Of a stretch of 64,000 nucleotides of DNA, positions 51,472 through 58,406 are shown one piece after another (within the stretch, counting starts at the first letter, position 1; each line of letters opens with the position of its first letter). Origin of the DNA: Gammaproteobacteria bacterium (lineage in GTDB: Bacteria > Pseudomonadota > Gammaproteobacteria > Thiohalomonadales > Thiohalomonadaceae). Position numbers and translations under genes: made by a program. Under the pieces are notes generated by a model. The model saw only the letters and a list, made by a program, of their open reading frames with translations, had not been told where the DNA came from and made no database searches. The stretch spans positions 1 to 64,000 of the forward strand of contig QKED01000043.1 in NCBI GenBank assembly GCA_003252455.1, in the 5' to 3' direction.

Positions 51472-52938
51472 TCAGCCCTGCTTGGCCTCCGGCTTCCACA
51501 CCAGATCCAACTCACGCGCCGCCTTGACATCATCCAGCCTGCGCACCGGCAGGGTGTGCGGCGCGCCCTTGAGCAGCTCCGGCTGCTCGACCATCTCCTG
51601 GGCGATGGCACTCAGTGCCGCGACGAAGGCGTCTAGGGTCTCGCGCTCCTCGGTCTCGGTGGGCTCGATGAGCAGGCACTCGGGCACCAGCAGCGGGAAG
51701 TAGGTGGTGGGTGCGTGGTGGCCGTAGTCGAGCAGGCGCTTGGCCACGTCCATGGCGCTGACGCCGAACTGCTTCTGCTCCCGCTTGAGGGTGACGATGA
51801 ACTCGTGGGTGGCACGACGTTCAGGGATGGCCATCTCGAACCCTGCGGTCTTGAGACGGGCCATCAGGTAGTTGGCGTTGAGCGTGGCGTACTCGGCGAT
51901 GCGGTGCATCCCCTCACGCCCCAGCATGCGCGCGTAGACGTAGGCACGCAGCAGGATGCCGACATTACCGGCGTGGGCGGAGAGGCGCCCGATGCTCTGC
52001 GGGCGATCCTCCTCGGTCAGCCAGCGGAAACGCCCACCCTCCTCGCCCACCATGGGGATAGGCAGGAAGGGGGCGAGGCGCTCGCTCACCGCCACCGGAC
52101 CGGCACCGGGGCCACCGCCACCGTGGGGGGTGGAGAAGGTCTTGTGCAGGTTGAGGTGGATCACATCGAAGCCCATGTCGCCCGGCTTCACCTTGCCGAG
52201 GATGGCGTTGAGATTGGCGCCGTCGTAATAGAGCAGACCACCTGCCGCGTGGACGATGGCGGCGATCTCTTTGATGCGCCGCTCGAAGACGCCAAGGGTG
52301 CTCGGGTTGGTGAGCATGATGCCAGCGGTCTGCGGGCCAACGGCGGCACGCAGCGCCTCGACATCCACGTCCCCCTGGTCGTTGGTGGGGATCTCACGCA
52401 CCTCGTAACCGCACATCACGGCGGTGGCCGGGTTGGTGCCGTGGGCCGCGTCGGGCACCAGGATCTCCGTGCGCGCGGTGTCGCCACGGGCGCCGTGGTA
52501 GGCGCGGATCATCGCCACCCCGGCAAACTCACCCTGGGCACCGGCCATGGGGGTGAGGGAGACACCGCCCTTCATGCCGGTGACGTCGCGCAGGATCTCC
52601 TGCAGGTCGTGCAGGCAGGCGAGCACGCCCTGACCGTGGCTCTCGGCGGGGGCCAGCGGATGGCGGCCCAGGAAGCCCGGCAACATGGCGAGGCTGTTGG
52701 AGCCGCGCGGGTTGTACTTCATGGTGCAGGAGCCGAGCGGGTAGAAGTGCGTGTCGATGGAGAAGTTCTTCTGCGACAGCTGGGTGTAGTGGCGCACGGC
52801 CTGGAGTTCGCTCACCTCGGGTAGGGCCGGGGCGGCCTTGCGGCGCAGCTCGGCGGGGATGTCGTCGTCACGCGCGGCGGTGGTGGTGAGCTGGACCCCG
52901 TTGACGCGGCCAGGGCGGGAGTGTTCGAAGATCAGCAT
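51472..52938 (-). CDS. gcvPB: Glycine dehydrogenase (decarboxylating) subunit 2 (P protein beta)
   Basis: The PLP-carrying half of a two-chain P protein (488 residues). The PLP lysine lies in [44 protein letters not shown] and [14 protein letters not shown] are also typical. With GcvPA it decarboxylates glycine and passes aminomethyl to lipoyl-GcvH. The ATG at 52938 follows the family; the 126 codons upstream run through an intergenic repeat and are not coding. It is last in the operon, 175 bases after gcvPA. Confidence 0.93.
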
Positions 52939-52966
52939 GGTGGTCTCATCCTGGAAGATTGGATTT

Positions 52967-53106
52967 GCCACGGAGGCACGGAGGACACGGAGTGGTATAT
53001 GTGTAACTCGGTGTCGGCGTGGCTCAGGGCACAAGGAAATGGGTGGTAGGGCGCGGATTATCAAAGAAGAGCCTTCTCTTCTCCGTGTCCTCCGTGCCTC
53101 CGTGGC
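52967..53106. repeat. 26-base perfect inverted repeat in the gcvPA-gcvPB gap
   Basis: Arms at 52967-52992 and 53081-53106 are exact reverse complements. They start GCCACGGAGGCACGGAGG and have a 9-base rhythm (CACGGAGGx). The 88-base interior has no gene. In RNA it would be a large hairpin within the gcv message. Similar CACRGAG-type repeats are familiar as dispersed intergenic repeats in many bacterial genomes. Confidence 0.85.
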
Positions 53107-53113
53107 GCATTCC

Positions 53114-54523
53114 TCAGAACGGGTTCTCCGCCGGTTTCAGACGGGTGCAGACCGGGCGGTCGAGGCGCCCGACGACGCGGGTCAGGTGGTGGACCAGATC
53201 GTCGATCTCCTCCTCGGTGCGCTTCTCGGTGGCACAGACCAGCAGGCAGTTCTCCAGCTCCGGGTAGTCACGACCCAGGTGGTAACCACCGAGCACCTCC
53301 TGCACCGCCAGGGCGCGCAGGGCGTCCTCGGCGGAGACCGGCAGGCGCACCACCAGCTCGTGGAAGTAGGGGCTGGTAAACACCGGCTCGACACCGCCGA
53401 TGGCCGTGAGCTTCTCGGCCAGGGTGCGGGTGTTGGCGTGGCTCGCCTGGGCCGCGCTGGTGAGCCCGGCGGGGCCCATCATGGCCATGTGGATGGTGGC
53501 GGCGGCGGCCATCAGCCCCTGGTTGGTGCAGATGTTGGAGGTCGCCTTGGAGCGGCGGATGTGCTGCTCACGGGCCTGCAGGGTGAGGGTGAAGCCGGGC
53601 TTGCCGTCGAGGTCGACGGTGCGCCCGACGATGCGCCCGGGCATCTGCCGCACGAGCGCCTGCTTGCAGGCGAGCAGGCCGAGGTAGGGGCCACCGGAGG
53701 AGAGCGGCAGACCGAGCGGCTGGCCCTCACCGCAGGCGATGTCGGCACCATTGGTGCCCCACGCGCCGGGCGGGGTGAGCAGGGTCATCGCCAGCGGGTT
53801 GACACAACCGACGACGATGGCGTTGTGTGCGTGGGCGGCGTCGGTGAGGGCGTCGACCAGTTCCAGCACGCCGAAGAAGTTGGGCTGCTGAATGACCATC
53901 GCGACGAAGGGCTCGGCCATCGCCTCTTCCAGGGCAACGGCGTCGATGCGCCCGCTCTCCGGGTCGTAGGCCACGTCCACCAGCTCGATGCCCTGGTTGC
54001 GCACGATGGTATCGACGGTGTCGCGATAGGCGGGGTGCAGGCTGCCCGGCACCAGCACGCGGGTCGACTTCACCTTGCGGTTGGCGCGCACCGCCATCAG
54101 CACCGCCTCGGCCAGCGCGGAGGCGCCGTCGTAGAGCGAGGCGTTGCTCACGTCCATGCCCATGAGGCTCGCGACCATGCTCTGGAATTCATACACCAGT
54201 TGCAGGGTGCCCTGACTCGCCTCGGCCTGATAGGGGGTGTAGGCGGAGTAGAACTCACCACGGGTCACCAGCTCCCACACCGCCGCCGGGATGTGGTGGT
54301 CGTAGGCACCGGCACCGATGAAGCAGACCGGCTCGCCGTCGCTGCTGGCGCGCATACGCATCAGCTTGCCGATGGCCGCCTCGCTCATGCCGGGCGGCAC
54401 GGCGTCGAGGCCACGGGCGCGCAGCTCGGCGGGGATCTCGTCGAACAGGCTGTCGATGTCGACCACGCCGATGGCGGCGAGCATCGCCTCCAGGTCGGCG
54501 GGGGTGTGGGGGATGAAGGGCAT
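53114..54523 (-). CDS. gcvPA: Glycine dehydrogenase (decarboxylating) subunit 1 (P protein alpha)
   Basis: The 469-residue partner of GcvPB. It opens with [20 protein letters not shown] and has [41 protein letters not shown]-like and [23 protein letters not shown] motifs, the diagnostic N-terminal P-protein pattern, without the PLP lysine. The two-chain P protein differs from the single-chain form of enterics. It starts 33 bases after gcvH. Confidence 0.95.
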
Positions 54524-54556: not shown

Positions 54557-54940
54557 TTAGCCGTCGGCGTCGACGATGGCCTGGTAGGCCTCGGCGTCGA
54601 TCAGGCCGCTCATATCGTCGGCACTCATGCGCCACAGCCAGCCGTCGCCGTAGGGGTCCTGGTTGACCAGCTCGGGGGCGTCGACCACGGCGTCGTTGGC
54701 GGCGGTGACCACGCCGGCCAGGGGGGCGTAGACGTCGGAGGCGGCCTTCACCGACTCGACCACGGCGCACTCCTCCTCGGCGGCCAGCTCGCGCTCCACC
54801 TCGGGCAGCTCGATGAAGACCATGTCACCGAGCAGCTCTTGGGCGTGGTGGGTGATGCCGACGGTGACGGTGCCGTCACCCTCGTCGCGGACCCACTCGT
54901 GGGACTTGGTGTACTTGAGTTCAGCGGGGACGTTGCTCAT
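54557..54940 (-). CDS. gcvH: Glycine cleavage system H protein
   Basis: The 127-residue lipoyl carrier that shuttles aminomethyl between the P, T and L proteins. The lipoylated lysine is in [17 protein letters not shown] (about residue 64). Opening [10 protein letters not shown] and ending [10 protein letters not shown] are standard. It starts 82 bases after gcvT. Its lipoylation depends on LipA, encoded at the front of the same operon. Confidence 0.95.
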
Positions 54941-55022
54941 GGTAAAACTCCTTGGATGAAAGAGAGATGTTTGGAAAAAAAGGGCTGAACGCCTGGGCGG
55001 CAGAGGCCACCCAGGCGGTGAC

Positions 55023-56111
55023 TCAGGCGAGGCAGCTCTGGCCGTCGCGCACGAAGGGCGCAGCGACGATGCGCGCCGGGAGCAGCTTGCCACGGATGTC
55101 CACCTGGCAGTGTGACGCCTCGCCCACCGGGATGCGCGCCAGGGCGATGGCCACACCGAGGGTCGGGGAGAAGGTGCCGGAGGTGATCTCGCCCTCCCCG
55201 GCCCCCTCGACCACCACTCTCTGGTGGGCGCGCAGTACGCCCTTGCCTTCGAGTACCAGGCCGACCAGGCGCTGCTGCACACCCGTCGCCTGCTCCGCCT
55301 CCAGCGCGGCGCGACCGATGAAGTCGCGCCCCGCGTCCTTGAACCAGAGGGTCCAGGCGAGGCCGGAGATGAGCGGGCTGGTATTCTCGTCCATATCCTG
55401 CCCGTAGAGGTTCATGCCCGCCTCCAGGCGCAGGGTGTCGCGCGCGCCGAGACCGGCGGGGAGCACACCGGCGTCGAGCAGGCGCTGCCAGAGGCCGGGG
55501 GCCTCGTGGGCCGGGAGCATGATCTCGTAGCCATCCTCGCCGGTGTAGCCGGTGCGACCGATGAAGGTCATGCCATCCACATTGTGGGCGTAGAAGCGGC
55601 CCAGGGCGGTGAGCGCCTCGGCCTGTTCGGGCAGCACGGCATGCACCTTGGCGCGCGCCTCGGGGCCCTGCACGGCGATCATCGCCAGCTCACGGCGCGG
55701 CTCGATGCTCACGGCGAAGCCCTCGGCCTGCAGCTGCATCCAGGCGATGTCCTTATCGGCGGTCCCGGCGTTGACCACGATGCGCACCCACTCGGGCTCC
55801 ATGTAGTAGACGATGAGGTCGTCGATCACCCCGCCCTCGGGGTTGAGCATGCAGCTGTAGAGCGCCTTGCCGGACTGGGTCAGGCGCGCCACGTCGTTGG
55901 CCAGCAGGCGGCGCAGGAAGGGGATGGTGCCGCTGCCGTTCACGTCCACCACGCACATGTGCGAGACGTCGAACATGCCCGCCGCGCGGCGCACCAGGTG
56001 GTGCTCCTCGATCTGCGAGCCGTAGTTGACCGGCATCTCCCAGCCGCCGAAGTCGACCATGCGCGCACCGGCGTCCACATGGCTCTGAAACAGGGGGGTG
56101 CGTTTGAGCAT
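55023..56111 (-). CDS. gcvT: Glycine cleavage system T protein (aminomethyltransferase)
   Basis: A tetrahydrofolate-dependent enzyme of 362 residues that releases ammonia and makes 5,10-methylene-THF. The opening [54 protein letters not shown] and the C-terminal barrel domain ([21 protein letters not shown]) are clear. It starts 25 bases after lipA. Confidence 0.95.
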
Positions 56112-56136
56112 CGTGAGGTTCCTTAAAAGTGTGAAA

Positions 56137-57027
56137 TCAGCTTTCGGCGTGGTAGGAGCTGCGCACCATGGCGCCGGACTTGACCCAGGTGAAGCCGAGG
56201 GCCTTCGCCTCGTCGGCGTAGTCGGCGAACTGCTCGGGGGTCAGGTACTCGCGCACCGGCAGGTGGTGGCGGGTGGGGCGCAGGTATTGGCCCAGGGCGA
56301 GGCGGGTGACGCCGACGGCGCGTAGATCGCCGAGCACGCCGAGCACCTGTTCGCGGCTCTCACCCAGGCCGAGCATCAGCGAGGACTTGGCCTCGCAGCG
56401 CGGGTCGGCAGCGGCCAGGCGCAGCAGCTCCAGTGAGCGCGGGTACTTGGCGCCCTTGCGCACGCGCTGGTAGAGGTCGGGCACCGTCTCGACGTTGTGG
56501 CCGAAGACCAGTGTGGTGCCGGGCAGCAGCGCATCAAGGATGGCGGCCACGGCAGCGGGCTGGTCTTGGCGAAAGTCGGGGGTGAGCAGCTCGATGCCGA
56601 GATCGGCGCGGCGCGCCTGGAGTTCGCGCACACTGGCGGCGAACTGAGCGGCGCCGCCATCGGGCAGGTCGTCGCGGTTGACCGAGGTGAGCACCACGTA
56701 GTCGAGCCCCATCTCGGCCACCGCCTCGGCCAGGCGGCGCGGCTCGTCGGGGTCGGCGGCCTCGGGGCGCCCGGTGGCCACGGCGCAGAAGCCGCAGGCG
56801 CGGGTGCAGGTGTCGCCGAGGAGCATGAAGGTGGCGGTGCCGCGCCCCCAGCACTCGCCGCGATTGGGGCAGCGCGCCTCCTCGCAGACGGTGTTGAGGC
56901 GCTGGCGCTGCACCAGACGGGCGGTGTCGCCGTAGTCGCCATTGGCCAGCGATTGGCGCACCCAGGGCGGCATGCGCGAGACGTTGGCCTCGGCGGAGTG
57001 ATCGAAGACGGGGATGTGTACGGGCAT
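56137..57027 (-). CDS. lipA: Lipoyl synthase
   Basis: A radical SAM enzyme (296 residues) that inserts two sulfurs into octanoyl groups on proteins such as GcvH. Both iron-sulfur motifs are seen: the auxiliary [12 protein letters not shown] (about 48-59) and the SAM-cluster CTRACGFC, plus the C-terminal RSSY serine ligand. The ATG at 57027 has GGAG upstream; the longer frame runs into the riboswitch. It is the first gene after the glycine riboswitch, which is an unusual place for lipA. A lipB gene is not nearby. Confidence 0.93.
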
Positions 57028-57063
57028 AGATTGGCTCCGGTAACCTGAAACGCGCCAAAACGC

Positions 57064-57110
57064 AAAAAGGGGCGACCGGGGTCCGTGCGCGGCACGGCCC
57101 GATCGCCCCT
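57064..57110 (-). terminator. Intrinsic terminator in the glycine riboswitch leader
   Basis: A 12-base GC-rich arm pairs with its partner across an inner CCGTGC/GCACGG hairpin, followed on the minus strand by UUUUU. It lies directly after the second aptamer and 37 bases before the lipA ATG, so it is the probable expression platform that glycine binding would prevent from forming. Confidence 0.8.
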
Positions 57111-57325
57111 CTGTCCCGGTCACCTGAGAGCTTTTGCCCCTTCGGCGGGGGGGCTGGGACGCCCATGGCGTCGCCCCCCTCTCTCCAGAGTCGACCTTGA
57201 ACTACCCACGATCTGTAGATAGTCACCCCACGGTCCTTTTACCTGAGCGATTCCGGACGGGTTGCGCCTTCGGTGGTGGCCTCGCCTATAGGCAGCCACG
57301 CTCTCCCATGGGGGGTGCGGTCGAA
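57111..57325 (-). promoter_or_regulatory. Tandem glycine riboswitch
   Basis: Two glycine aptamers on the minus strand. Aptamer 1 (about 57232-57310) has GGGAGAGCG, CCGAAGGCGCAA and GCUCAGGUAAAAGGACCG. Aptamer 2 (about 57112-57190) has CUGGAGAGAG, CCGAAGGGGCAA and CUCAGGUGACCGGGACAGAG. These are the conserved core segments of the gcvT-type riboswitch in the usual order. It controls lipA-gcvT-gcvH-gcvPA-gcvPB. The 416 bases between lipA and the next gene hold this leader and, farther upstream, a short tandem repeat. Confidence 0.93.
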
Positions 57326-57376
57326 CGCGGATCATAGTCCTCTGGCGGTGGCTTTCCAAGGGGCGAAGAAGATATT

Positions 57377-57408
57377 CACCACAGAGAACACAGAGAACAC
57401 AGAGAGAA
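57377..57408. repeat. Short 9-base tandem repeat upstream of the riboswitch
   Basis: ACAGAGAAC is repeated twice exactly and a third time with one or two changes. Its pattern (CACAGAGAA) is a transition-type variant of the CACGGAGGx repeat in the gcvPA-gcvPB gap. Confidence 0.6.
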
Positions 57409-57443
57409 CTTATGCTGTACGCCCATAGTCGTGTGGCGCTGGG

Positions 57444-58406
57444 CTAGTTCACGTCGAACAGAGAGCGAATCGCGGCGATGCCCTGGGCGCCGTGGGCCCA
57501 GGCGGTGGGCAGCAGCTCGGGGCTCTGACCGCCGAGGGCGTAGATGGGTAGGGTGGCGTCGGCGGTCAGCTCGGCGAAGCGTGGCCAGCCGAGGCCAAGG
57601 GCGTCGGGGTGCGAGGCGGTGGGCAGTACCGGCGAGAGCAGGGCGAAGTCGGCGCGCAGCGACTGGGCCATGGTCAGCTCGTCGGCGTCGTGGCAGGAGA
57701 CGCCGATGAGGCCACCCTTGCTGATCAGGCTGTAGGGCCTGGCGTAGGCCTGGGCCAGCTGGTGTCGGGTGAGGTGGATGCCGTCGGCCAGGTCGAGCCA
57801 GGGGTCGGCGGCGGGGCGGTTGAGCAGCAGCTTGCCGCCTGCGGCGCGCACGCGTGGGAGCATGGCCTCGGCCAGTTGGCGGTAGGCGGCATCGTCCAGC
57901 TCGTGGGCGCGTAGCTGGACCAGGCGCACGCCGTTGGTGAGGGCGGCGTCGAGACGGGCAAGAAAGCCATCCCAGGGGCCGGGGCCCGGCTCGGGGGTGA
58001 TGAGGTAGCGGTCCGGTAGCTGTGCGGCACGCAGGAGCGGGCGGTTGGCGGCGGGGAAGGGGTAGTCGTCGAGCCCGGCTGCGCTGACCCAGCGGGTCGG
58101 CTGACCCTCACGGCCATGGGGCTCACCCTGCCACGCCTCGACTAGATAGGCGTCGAGCAGCACGCGGCGATCACCGTAATCGTGGGGGATGCGGATGAGC
58201 GGGCGAAACTGTGTGGGTGTGACCCCCAGCTCCTCTTGCAGCTCGCGCACGAGGGCCGCGTCGGCCCCCTCCCCCGCCTCGACCTTGCCGCCGGGGAACT
58301 CCCAGAGGCCGCCTTGGTGGGCCTTGGTCGCACGCTGGGCGATGAGATAGCGTCCGTCGGCGCTGCGCAGCAGGCCGAGGACGATGTGCAGGGGCGGGGT
58401 AGTCAA
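57444..58406 (-). CDS. mutT: MutT-type Nudix hydrolase fused to a ThiE-like domain
   Basis: A 320-residue fusion. The N-terminal Nudix domain (about 1-130) has GGKVEAGEGADAALVRELQEELGV, a complete Nudix box like 8-oxo-dGTP diphosphatase. The C-terminal half (about 133-320, RYLITPEP, LVQLRAHELDD, GIHLTRHQL, GVSCHDADEL, PIYALGG) is a TIM-barrel like thiamin-phosphate synthase but probably lacks full ThiE activity. This fusion is known in many gammaproteobacteria next to argJ and secA. The role of the second domain is unclear. Confidence 0.88.
   Translation of the reverse strand: MTTPPLHIVLGLLRSADGRYLIAQRATKAHQGGLWEFPGGKVEAGEGADAALVRELQEELGVTPTQFRPLIRIPHDYGDRRVLLDAYLVEAWQGEPHGREGQPTRWVSAAGLDDYPFPAANRPLLRAAQLPDRYLITPEPGPGPWDGFLARLDAALTNGVRLVQLRAHELDDAAYRQLAEAMLPRVRAAGGKLLLNRPAADPWLDLADGIHLTRHQLAQAYARPYSLISKGGLIGVSCHDADELTMAQSLRADFALLSPVLPTASHPDALGLGWPRFAELTADATLPIYALGGQSPELLPTAWAHGAQGIAAIRSLFDVN

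Follow-up and report, generated by a model that had tools for sequence, protein, structure and literature searches.

A tandem glycine riboswitch precedes a second lipoyl synthase gene at the head of a glycine cleavage operon in Thiohalomonadaceae

Why should a lipoyl synthase gene lie between a tandem glycine riboswitch and the genes for glycine cleavage, and would this position place lipoylation of GcvH under glycine control? The question is raised by a 64,000-nt stretch of a gammaproteobacterial genome of the Thiohalomonadaceae (assembly GCA_003252455.1, contig QKED01000043.1, positions 1 to 64,000; hereafter the window), for which a sequence-only reading had proposed the order two-aptamer leader-lipA-gcvT-gcvH-gcvPA-gcvPB. 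This order was confirmed by the RF00504 matches, the gene profiles and, for gcvPB, by homologues. On the minus strand, the tandem riboswitch (57318-57101) is followed by lipA, gcvT, gcvH, gcvPA and gcvPB with no gene intervening. We refer to the product of the window gene as LipA2 and to the ordinary lipBA-linked product as LipA1. The features of the locus are as follows.

57331..57359, minus strand: predicted sigma-70-like promoter site (TTGGAA/17 nt/TATGAT), a consensus match directly 5′ of aptamer 1
57221..57318, minus strand: glycine aptamer 1 (RF00504, 65.4 bits)
57199..57220, minus strand: inter-aptamer linker with an extra hairpin (folding z −3.7)
57101..57198, minus strand: glycine aptamer 2 (RF00504, 49.4 bits)
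57064..57111, minus strand: terminator hairpin and U tract (−38.8 kcal/mol, z −5.5), the 5′ arm beginning in the 3′ strand of aptamer 2
56137..57027, minus strand: lipA2, second lipoyl synthase gene (296 aa, TIGR00510)
55023..56111, minus strand: gcvT (TIGR00528)
54557..54940, minus strand: gcvH (127 aa, TIGR00527), with an ATG within a longer ORF (54557-55282) and the start picked from the match
53114..54523, minus strand: gcvPA (PRK00451)
51472..52938, minus strand: gcvPB (488 aa), with an ATG within a longer ORF (51472-53064), called from the ORF and from homologues holding the same position in related loci

According to the ORF coordinates, the five genes are separated by gaps of 25, 82, 33 and 175 nt. 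The longest lipA2 ORF starts at a GTG (57123) that falls inside aptamer 2, and for this reason the ATG at 57027, preceded by a GGAG ribosome-binding site at 57038-57035, is the likely start codon. A promoter scan of 56000-57700 returned a single promoter-like site (two overlapping matches), located 5′ of the aptamers, which would put the transcription start near 57324. The upstream neighbour on the same strand (57444-58406) encodes a Nudix hydrolase fused to a thiamine-phosphate-synthase-like domain (PRK08999) and is itself preceded by argJ and secA. Repeats of the CACAGAGNNCACAGAG type gave five matches in the window compared to 0.8 expected, among them 52977-52992, 53081-53096 and 57380-57404, in the gaps adjoining gcvPA/gcvPB and upstream of the promoter; strings resembling CACAGAGNNCACAGAG were also present in the spacer before lipA2 of loci L062 and L066.

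LipA2 exceeded the curated cut-off of TIGR00510 (338.6 vs 310.25 bits in the window search) and carries the three motifs set out in PMC9585516 and PMC12246082, namely CX3CX2C (radical-SAM), CX4CX5C (auxiliary) and RSSY. It is not the sole lipoyl synthase of this genome. A whole-genome TIGR00510 search revealed a second lipA at C55:684-1550, directly downstream of lipB, whose product LipA1 scored 420 bits vs 341 bits for LipA2. The two proteins belong to one enzyme family and share the cysteine and RSSY motifs, but they are 53% identical, and LipA2 differs from the canonical enzyme in belonging to a separate clade, in having no adjoining lipB and in having a glycine switch upstream. A maximum-likelihood tree built from 64 sequences placed LipA2 in a single clade (SH-aLRT 97), which lay outside the class's LipA1 clade of 18 rows (support 99), with the rooting uncertain. 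Because the tree did not nest LipA2 within the LipA1 clade, LipA2 was rejected as a recent gammaproteobacterial duplicate of LipA1. LipA2 was weakly grouped (88-89) with Thermosynechococcus elongatus LipA2 and mitochondrial LIAS in this tree, which holds few outside references. Lipoyl synthase 2 of T. elongatus (PDB 4u0o) is also the closest solved structure to LipA2 by sequence; the same entry is the best PDB match of LipA1, so the resemblance is non-specific and the shared name does not denote orthology. A plasmid search for LipA2 returned just generic LipA of <60% identity.

The family and the order of the source genome are represented by the same 20 genomes, 14 of which carry the tandem riboswitch, and lipA2 comes next in 13 of the 14, the window included. 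The sole exception is G008, where the riboswitch leads directly to gcvT and LipA1 is the only lipoyl synthase. Its sister species in the same genus, G007 (gcvT grouping support 99), has the order riboswitch-lipA2-gcvT and no LipA1. In G012 (L112:3682-5870), two lipA genes lie in a row, as lipA1-glycine riboswitch-lipA2-gcvT. A search of 369 gammaproteobacterial genomes with the LipA2 alignment A3 gave matches of 452-548 bits, with the next matches at ≤358 bits, and located LipA2 in 32 genomes. A glycine riboswitch lies just upstream of lipA2 in 27 of them; none was detected upstream in G236, G222, G324, G096 and G098, the G098 contig ending near the gene. Seen from the side of the riboswitch, 30 loci examined in the class led to lipA2 (8), directly to gcvT (20) or to neither (2). 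A phylum sample of 299 genomes contained LipA2 only in the source genome (G000) and G585, both of the window's class.

The best 80 LipA2 relatives in GTDB genomes include Thiohalophilus, Thiobacillus, Sulfuriferula, Hydrogenophilaceae, Gallionellaceae and Acidiferrobacterales. gcvT follows lipA2 in 79 of these 80 named loci, and in the remaining one (L083) the contig ends. With model R1, built from the family riboswitches, a switch was found upstream of lipA2 in 72 of the 77 testable loci, three others (L072, L095 and L138) being cut off and left out of this test; the other five of the 77 showed no upstream switch with either R1 or Rfam models. The recurrence of the same order in most related genomes indicated that the lipA2-led operon was not a matter of chance, and the five class genomes and five named loci with no detectable switch indicated that the switch and the lipA2-gcv genes are separable. 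On the gcvT tree, the lipA2-led state changed 9 times, at least 4 of the changes being forced by supported branches, which points to repeated loss or gain of lipA2. The tree did not support the idea that lipA2 and gcvT are always inherited as one unit.

LipA1 is also present in 24 of the 32 genomes with LipA2, and LipA2 therefore need not be limiting. The other eight (G007, G095, G098, G117, G196, G236, G302 and G334) show LipA2 only, with G098, G196 and G302 just 72-81% complete. In G000, G007, G008, G001, G117, G236 and G334, searches for the LplA/LipB fold found LipB and no other protein, and no protein of this fold was found in G095 and G098. Both lipB and E2 are kept in the LipA2-only genomes G007, G117, G236 and G334, which argues that LipA2 is probably active and likely a general enzyme. 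The only 2-oxoacid dehydrogenase E2 match in G000, as in G007, is an E2-E3 fusion with lipoyl domains; in the source genome it is encoded by L280:886-4056 (G000:C64), where lipoyl domains, E2 and E3 share one 1056-aa ORF. Judging from gene content, LipA2 is probably the sole lipoyl synthase for GcvH and E2 in G007, and LipA1 probably serves both in G008. The eight LipA2-only genomes, together with these two congeneric species having one type each, suggested that either enzyme probably suffices alone.

On one alternative view, LipA2 is a general synthase placed or retained at the head of the gcv operon, glycine control being largely a positional by-product and LipA1 carrying the main load in genomes that have both. 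The coexistence of the two enzymes, the G007 and G008 pair and the repeated gain or loss of lipA2 beside gcvT all favour this explanation, and we regard it as a serious contender with somewhat less than an even chance. The constancy of the locus speaks against it: in all of the 32 class genomes and best 80 named loci whose contigs reach far enough, lipA2 adjoins gcvT, and it nearly always stands behind the switch across a deep clade, whereas a purely incidental position should have been lost more frequently.

The constant linkage of lipA2 to gcvT-gcvH could instead reflect specialization, with LipA2 dedicated to octanoyl-GcvH and LipA1 to E2 proteins. The separate LipA2 clade, weakly grouped with mitochondrial LIAS, an enzyme thought to act on the H protein only (PMC12246082), is in line with such a division. 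However, genomes with LipA2 alone encode E2 proteins but no second ligase, and at the residues that distinguish the two enzymes LIAS does not clearly follow LipA2 (5 positions for, 4 against), leaving unsupported the notion that LipA2 shares diagnostic residues with the H-protein-specific human enzyme. We therefore consider a strict division of clients unlikely. A broader proposal, that LipA2 is a separate lineage mainly for GcvH, made on demand as turnover consumes its own iron-sulfur cluster, is possible, if doubtful, and ranks between the two preceding explanations. LipA is known to consume its auxiliary cluster, so that each enzyme yields no more than one product if the cluster is not rebuilt by a carrier such as NfuA (PMC9585516, PMC12246082), which would be a reason to raise LipA along with GcvH. 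The value of LipA2 within the operon is probably timely supply.

How glycine would act on the operon can be predicted from the leader. Both aptamers scored above the RF00504 gathering score of 32 bits, were the sole RF00504 matches in the genome and share one expression platform, the two aptamers being followed by one terminator. Folding showed that the aptamer-2 sequence AGAGGGGCGAUC continues into the terminator's 5′ arm, with GGUCGCCCC as the opposing 3′ arm and the U tract directly after it. When aptamer 2 was folded by itself, GGUCG paired with CGAUC, the same CGAUC that is used by the terminator, indicating that the two structures compete. A terminator hairpin formed from the aptamer-2 strand and followed by a U tract was present in 75 of 97 leaders. 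The inner stems of these terminators were diverse (54 octamers in 75 leaders), with pairing kept by two-sided substitutions, and only 4 of 1500 shuffles folded equally well. A simple rule-based terminator scan found none, as its rules miss a long interrupted stem. The extra, stable linker hairpin at 57199-57220 occupies a gap that most of the family lack: the Rfam matches abut or overlap in 12 of 14 members, and G012 has a gap of 49 nt. The leader-linker region reportedly matters for the kink-turn of tandem glycine switches.

Both in the window and among most relatives, the terminator takes up part of the aptamer-2 3′ strand, so that glycine is predicted to cause antitermination, that is an ON switch. 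The opposite polarity, in which glycine lowers expression, or control at translation only, could draw on the glycine riboswitch of gcvT in Neisseria gonorrhoeae, which works at translation (PMC13104608), and on the 22 of 97 leaders in which folding and comparison revealed no recognisable terminator built on this strand of the switch, so that some relatives' switches may act on translation. For the window, this alternative appears very improbable in view of the terminator overlap, and published glycine switches are reported to be ON for cleavage genes and OFF for transporters (PMC6944388). Even less credible is a switch that governs the gcv genes only, with lipA2 read from its own glycine-independent promoter, a reading for which no support was found: just 36 nt separate the U tract from the lipA2 ATG in the window, including the ribosome-binding site (the hairpin-to-start distance in relatives has a median of 33 nt), which leaves little room, and the sigma-70 consensus scan, which non-consensus or other promoter types could evade, found no promoter-like site in this gap.

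Taken together, these results make it probable that the tandem glycine riboswitch is a transcriptional ON switch of a five-gene operon headed by the second lipoyl synthase LipA2, with the ON polarity and the reach over the whole operon predicted from the modelled leader. When glycine is scarce, the GC-rich terminator would capture the aptamer-2 3′ strand and transcription would end before lipA2. With glycine, aptamer 2 would stay together, the terminator would not form and lipA2-gcvT-gcvH-gcvPA-gcvPB would be transcribed. The newly made apo-GcvH would be octanoylated by the genome's sole LipB-fold enzyme, and octanoyl-GcvH would then receive two sulfurs from LipA2 (and LipA1). We infer that LipA2 is active and that, under glycine, it serves mainly GcvH. 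Since a lipoyl synthase destroys its [4Fe-4S] auxiliary cluster in each turnover, making enzyme and substrate together would be a sensible answer to a sudden demand. The earlier claim, a joint rise with glycine of GcvH and of the capacity for its lipoylation, fits this anatomy, in which a conserved terminator joined to aptamer 2 lies immediately before lipA and the interval between switch and gene shows no promoter-like site, but it is incomplete: the switched gene is a second lipA, and octanoyl transfer (lipB) is not under the switch. With a lipA of a separate clade in addition to the ordinary lipBA pair, glycine control would therefore add capacity and not supply all of it.

Tandem RF00504-gcvT operons of Bacillus subtilis (PMC5666159) and N. 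gonorrhoeae (PMC13104608) likewise place two aptamers with a single expression platform before their glycine cleavage genes, and the B. subtilis switch is a glycine ON switch of the terminator type (PMC5666159), as predicted here. The present operon differs from these in that its first gene encodes a second lipoyl synthase. In Thermacetogenium phaeum, lplA, encoding a lipoate-protein ligase, lies inside the gcv operon (PMC12674515), so that a lipoylation gene is again grouped with glycine cleavage genes; there, however, the enzyme is a ligase and not a synthase, and the accessible part of that paper mentions no riboswitch for the operon. The main text of four surveys of glycine-riboswitch genes (PMC12452182, PMC6944388, PMC2211319 and PMC3766115) does not name lipA. 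Across open-access text, no description of a riboswitch-lipA-gcv arrangement was found, and 'glycine riboswitch' and 'lipoyl synthase' never occurred together in one paper. The arrangement, nearly universal in the family, is thus apparently a widespread, conserved and, provisionally, so far unreported variant of the riboswitch-gcv operon.

In open-access text, we found no report that a metabolite riboswitch controls lipoate assembly. If the proposed control is true, installation of the cofactor on an enzyme complex would be tied to the substrate that induces this complex. The operon is also a natural case in which to ask whether a lipoyl synthase that destroys its own cluster is limiting in cells and whether LipA lineages prefer different clients, for which G007 and G008, of one genus with one LipA type each, provide a ready comparison. 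Should the on-demand proposal prove true, a metabolite switch would match the supply of a near-single-use enzyme to the supply of its protein substrate.
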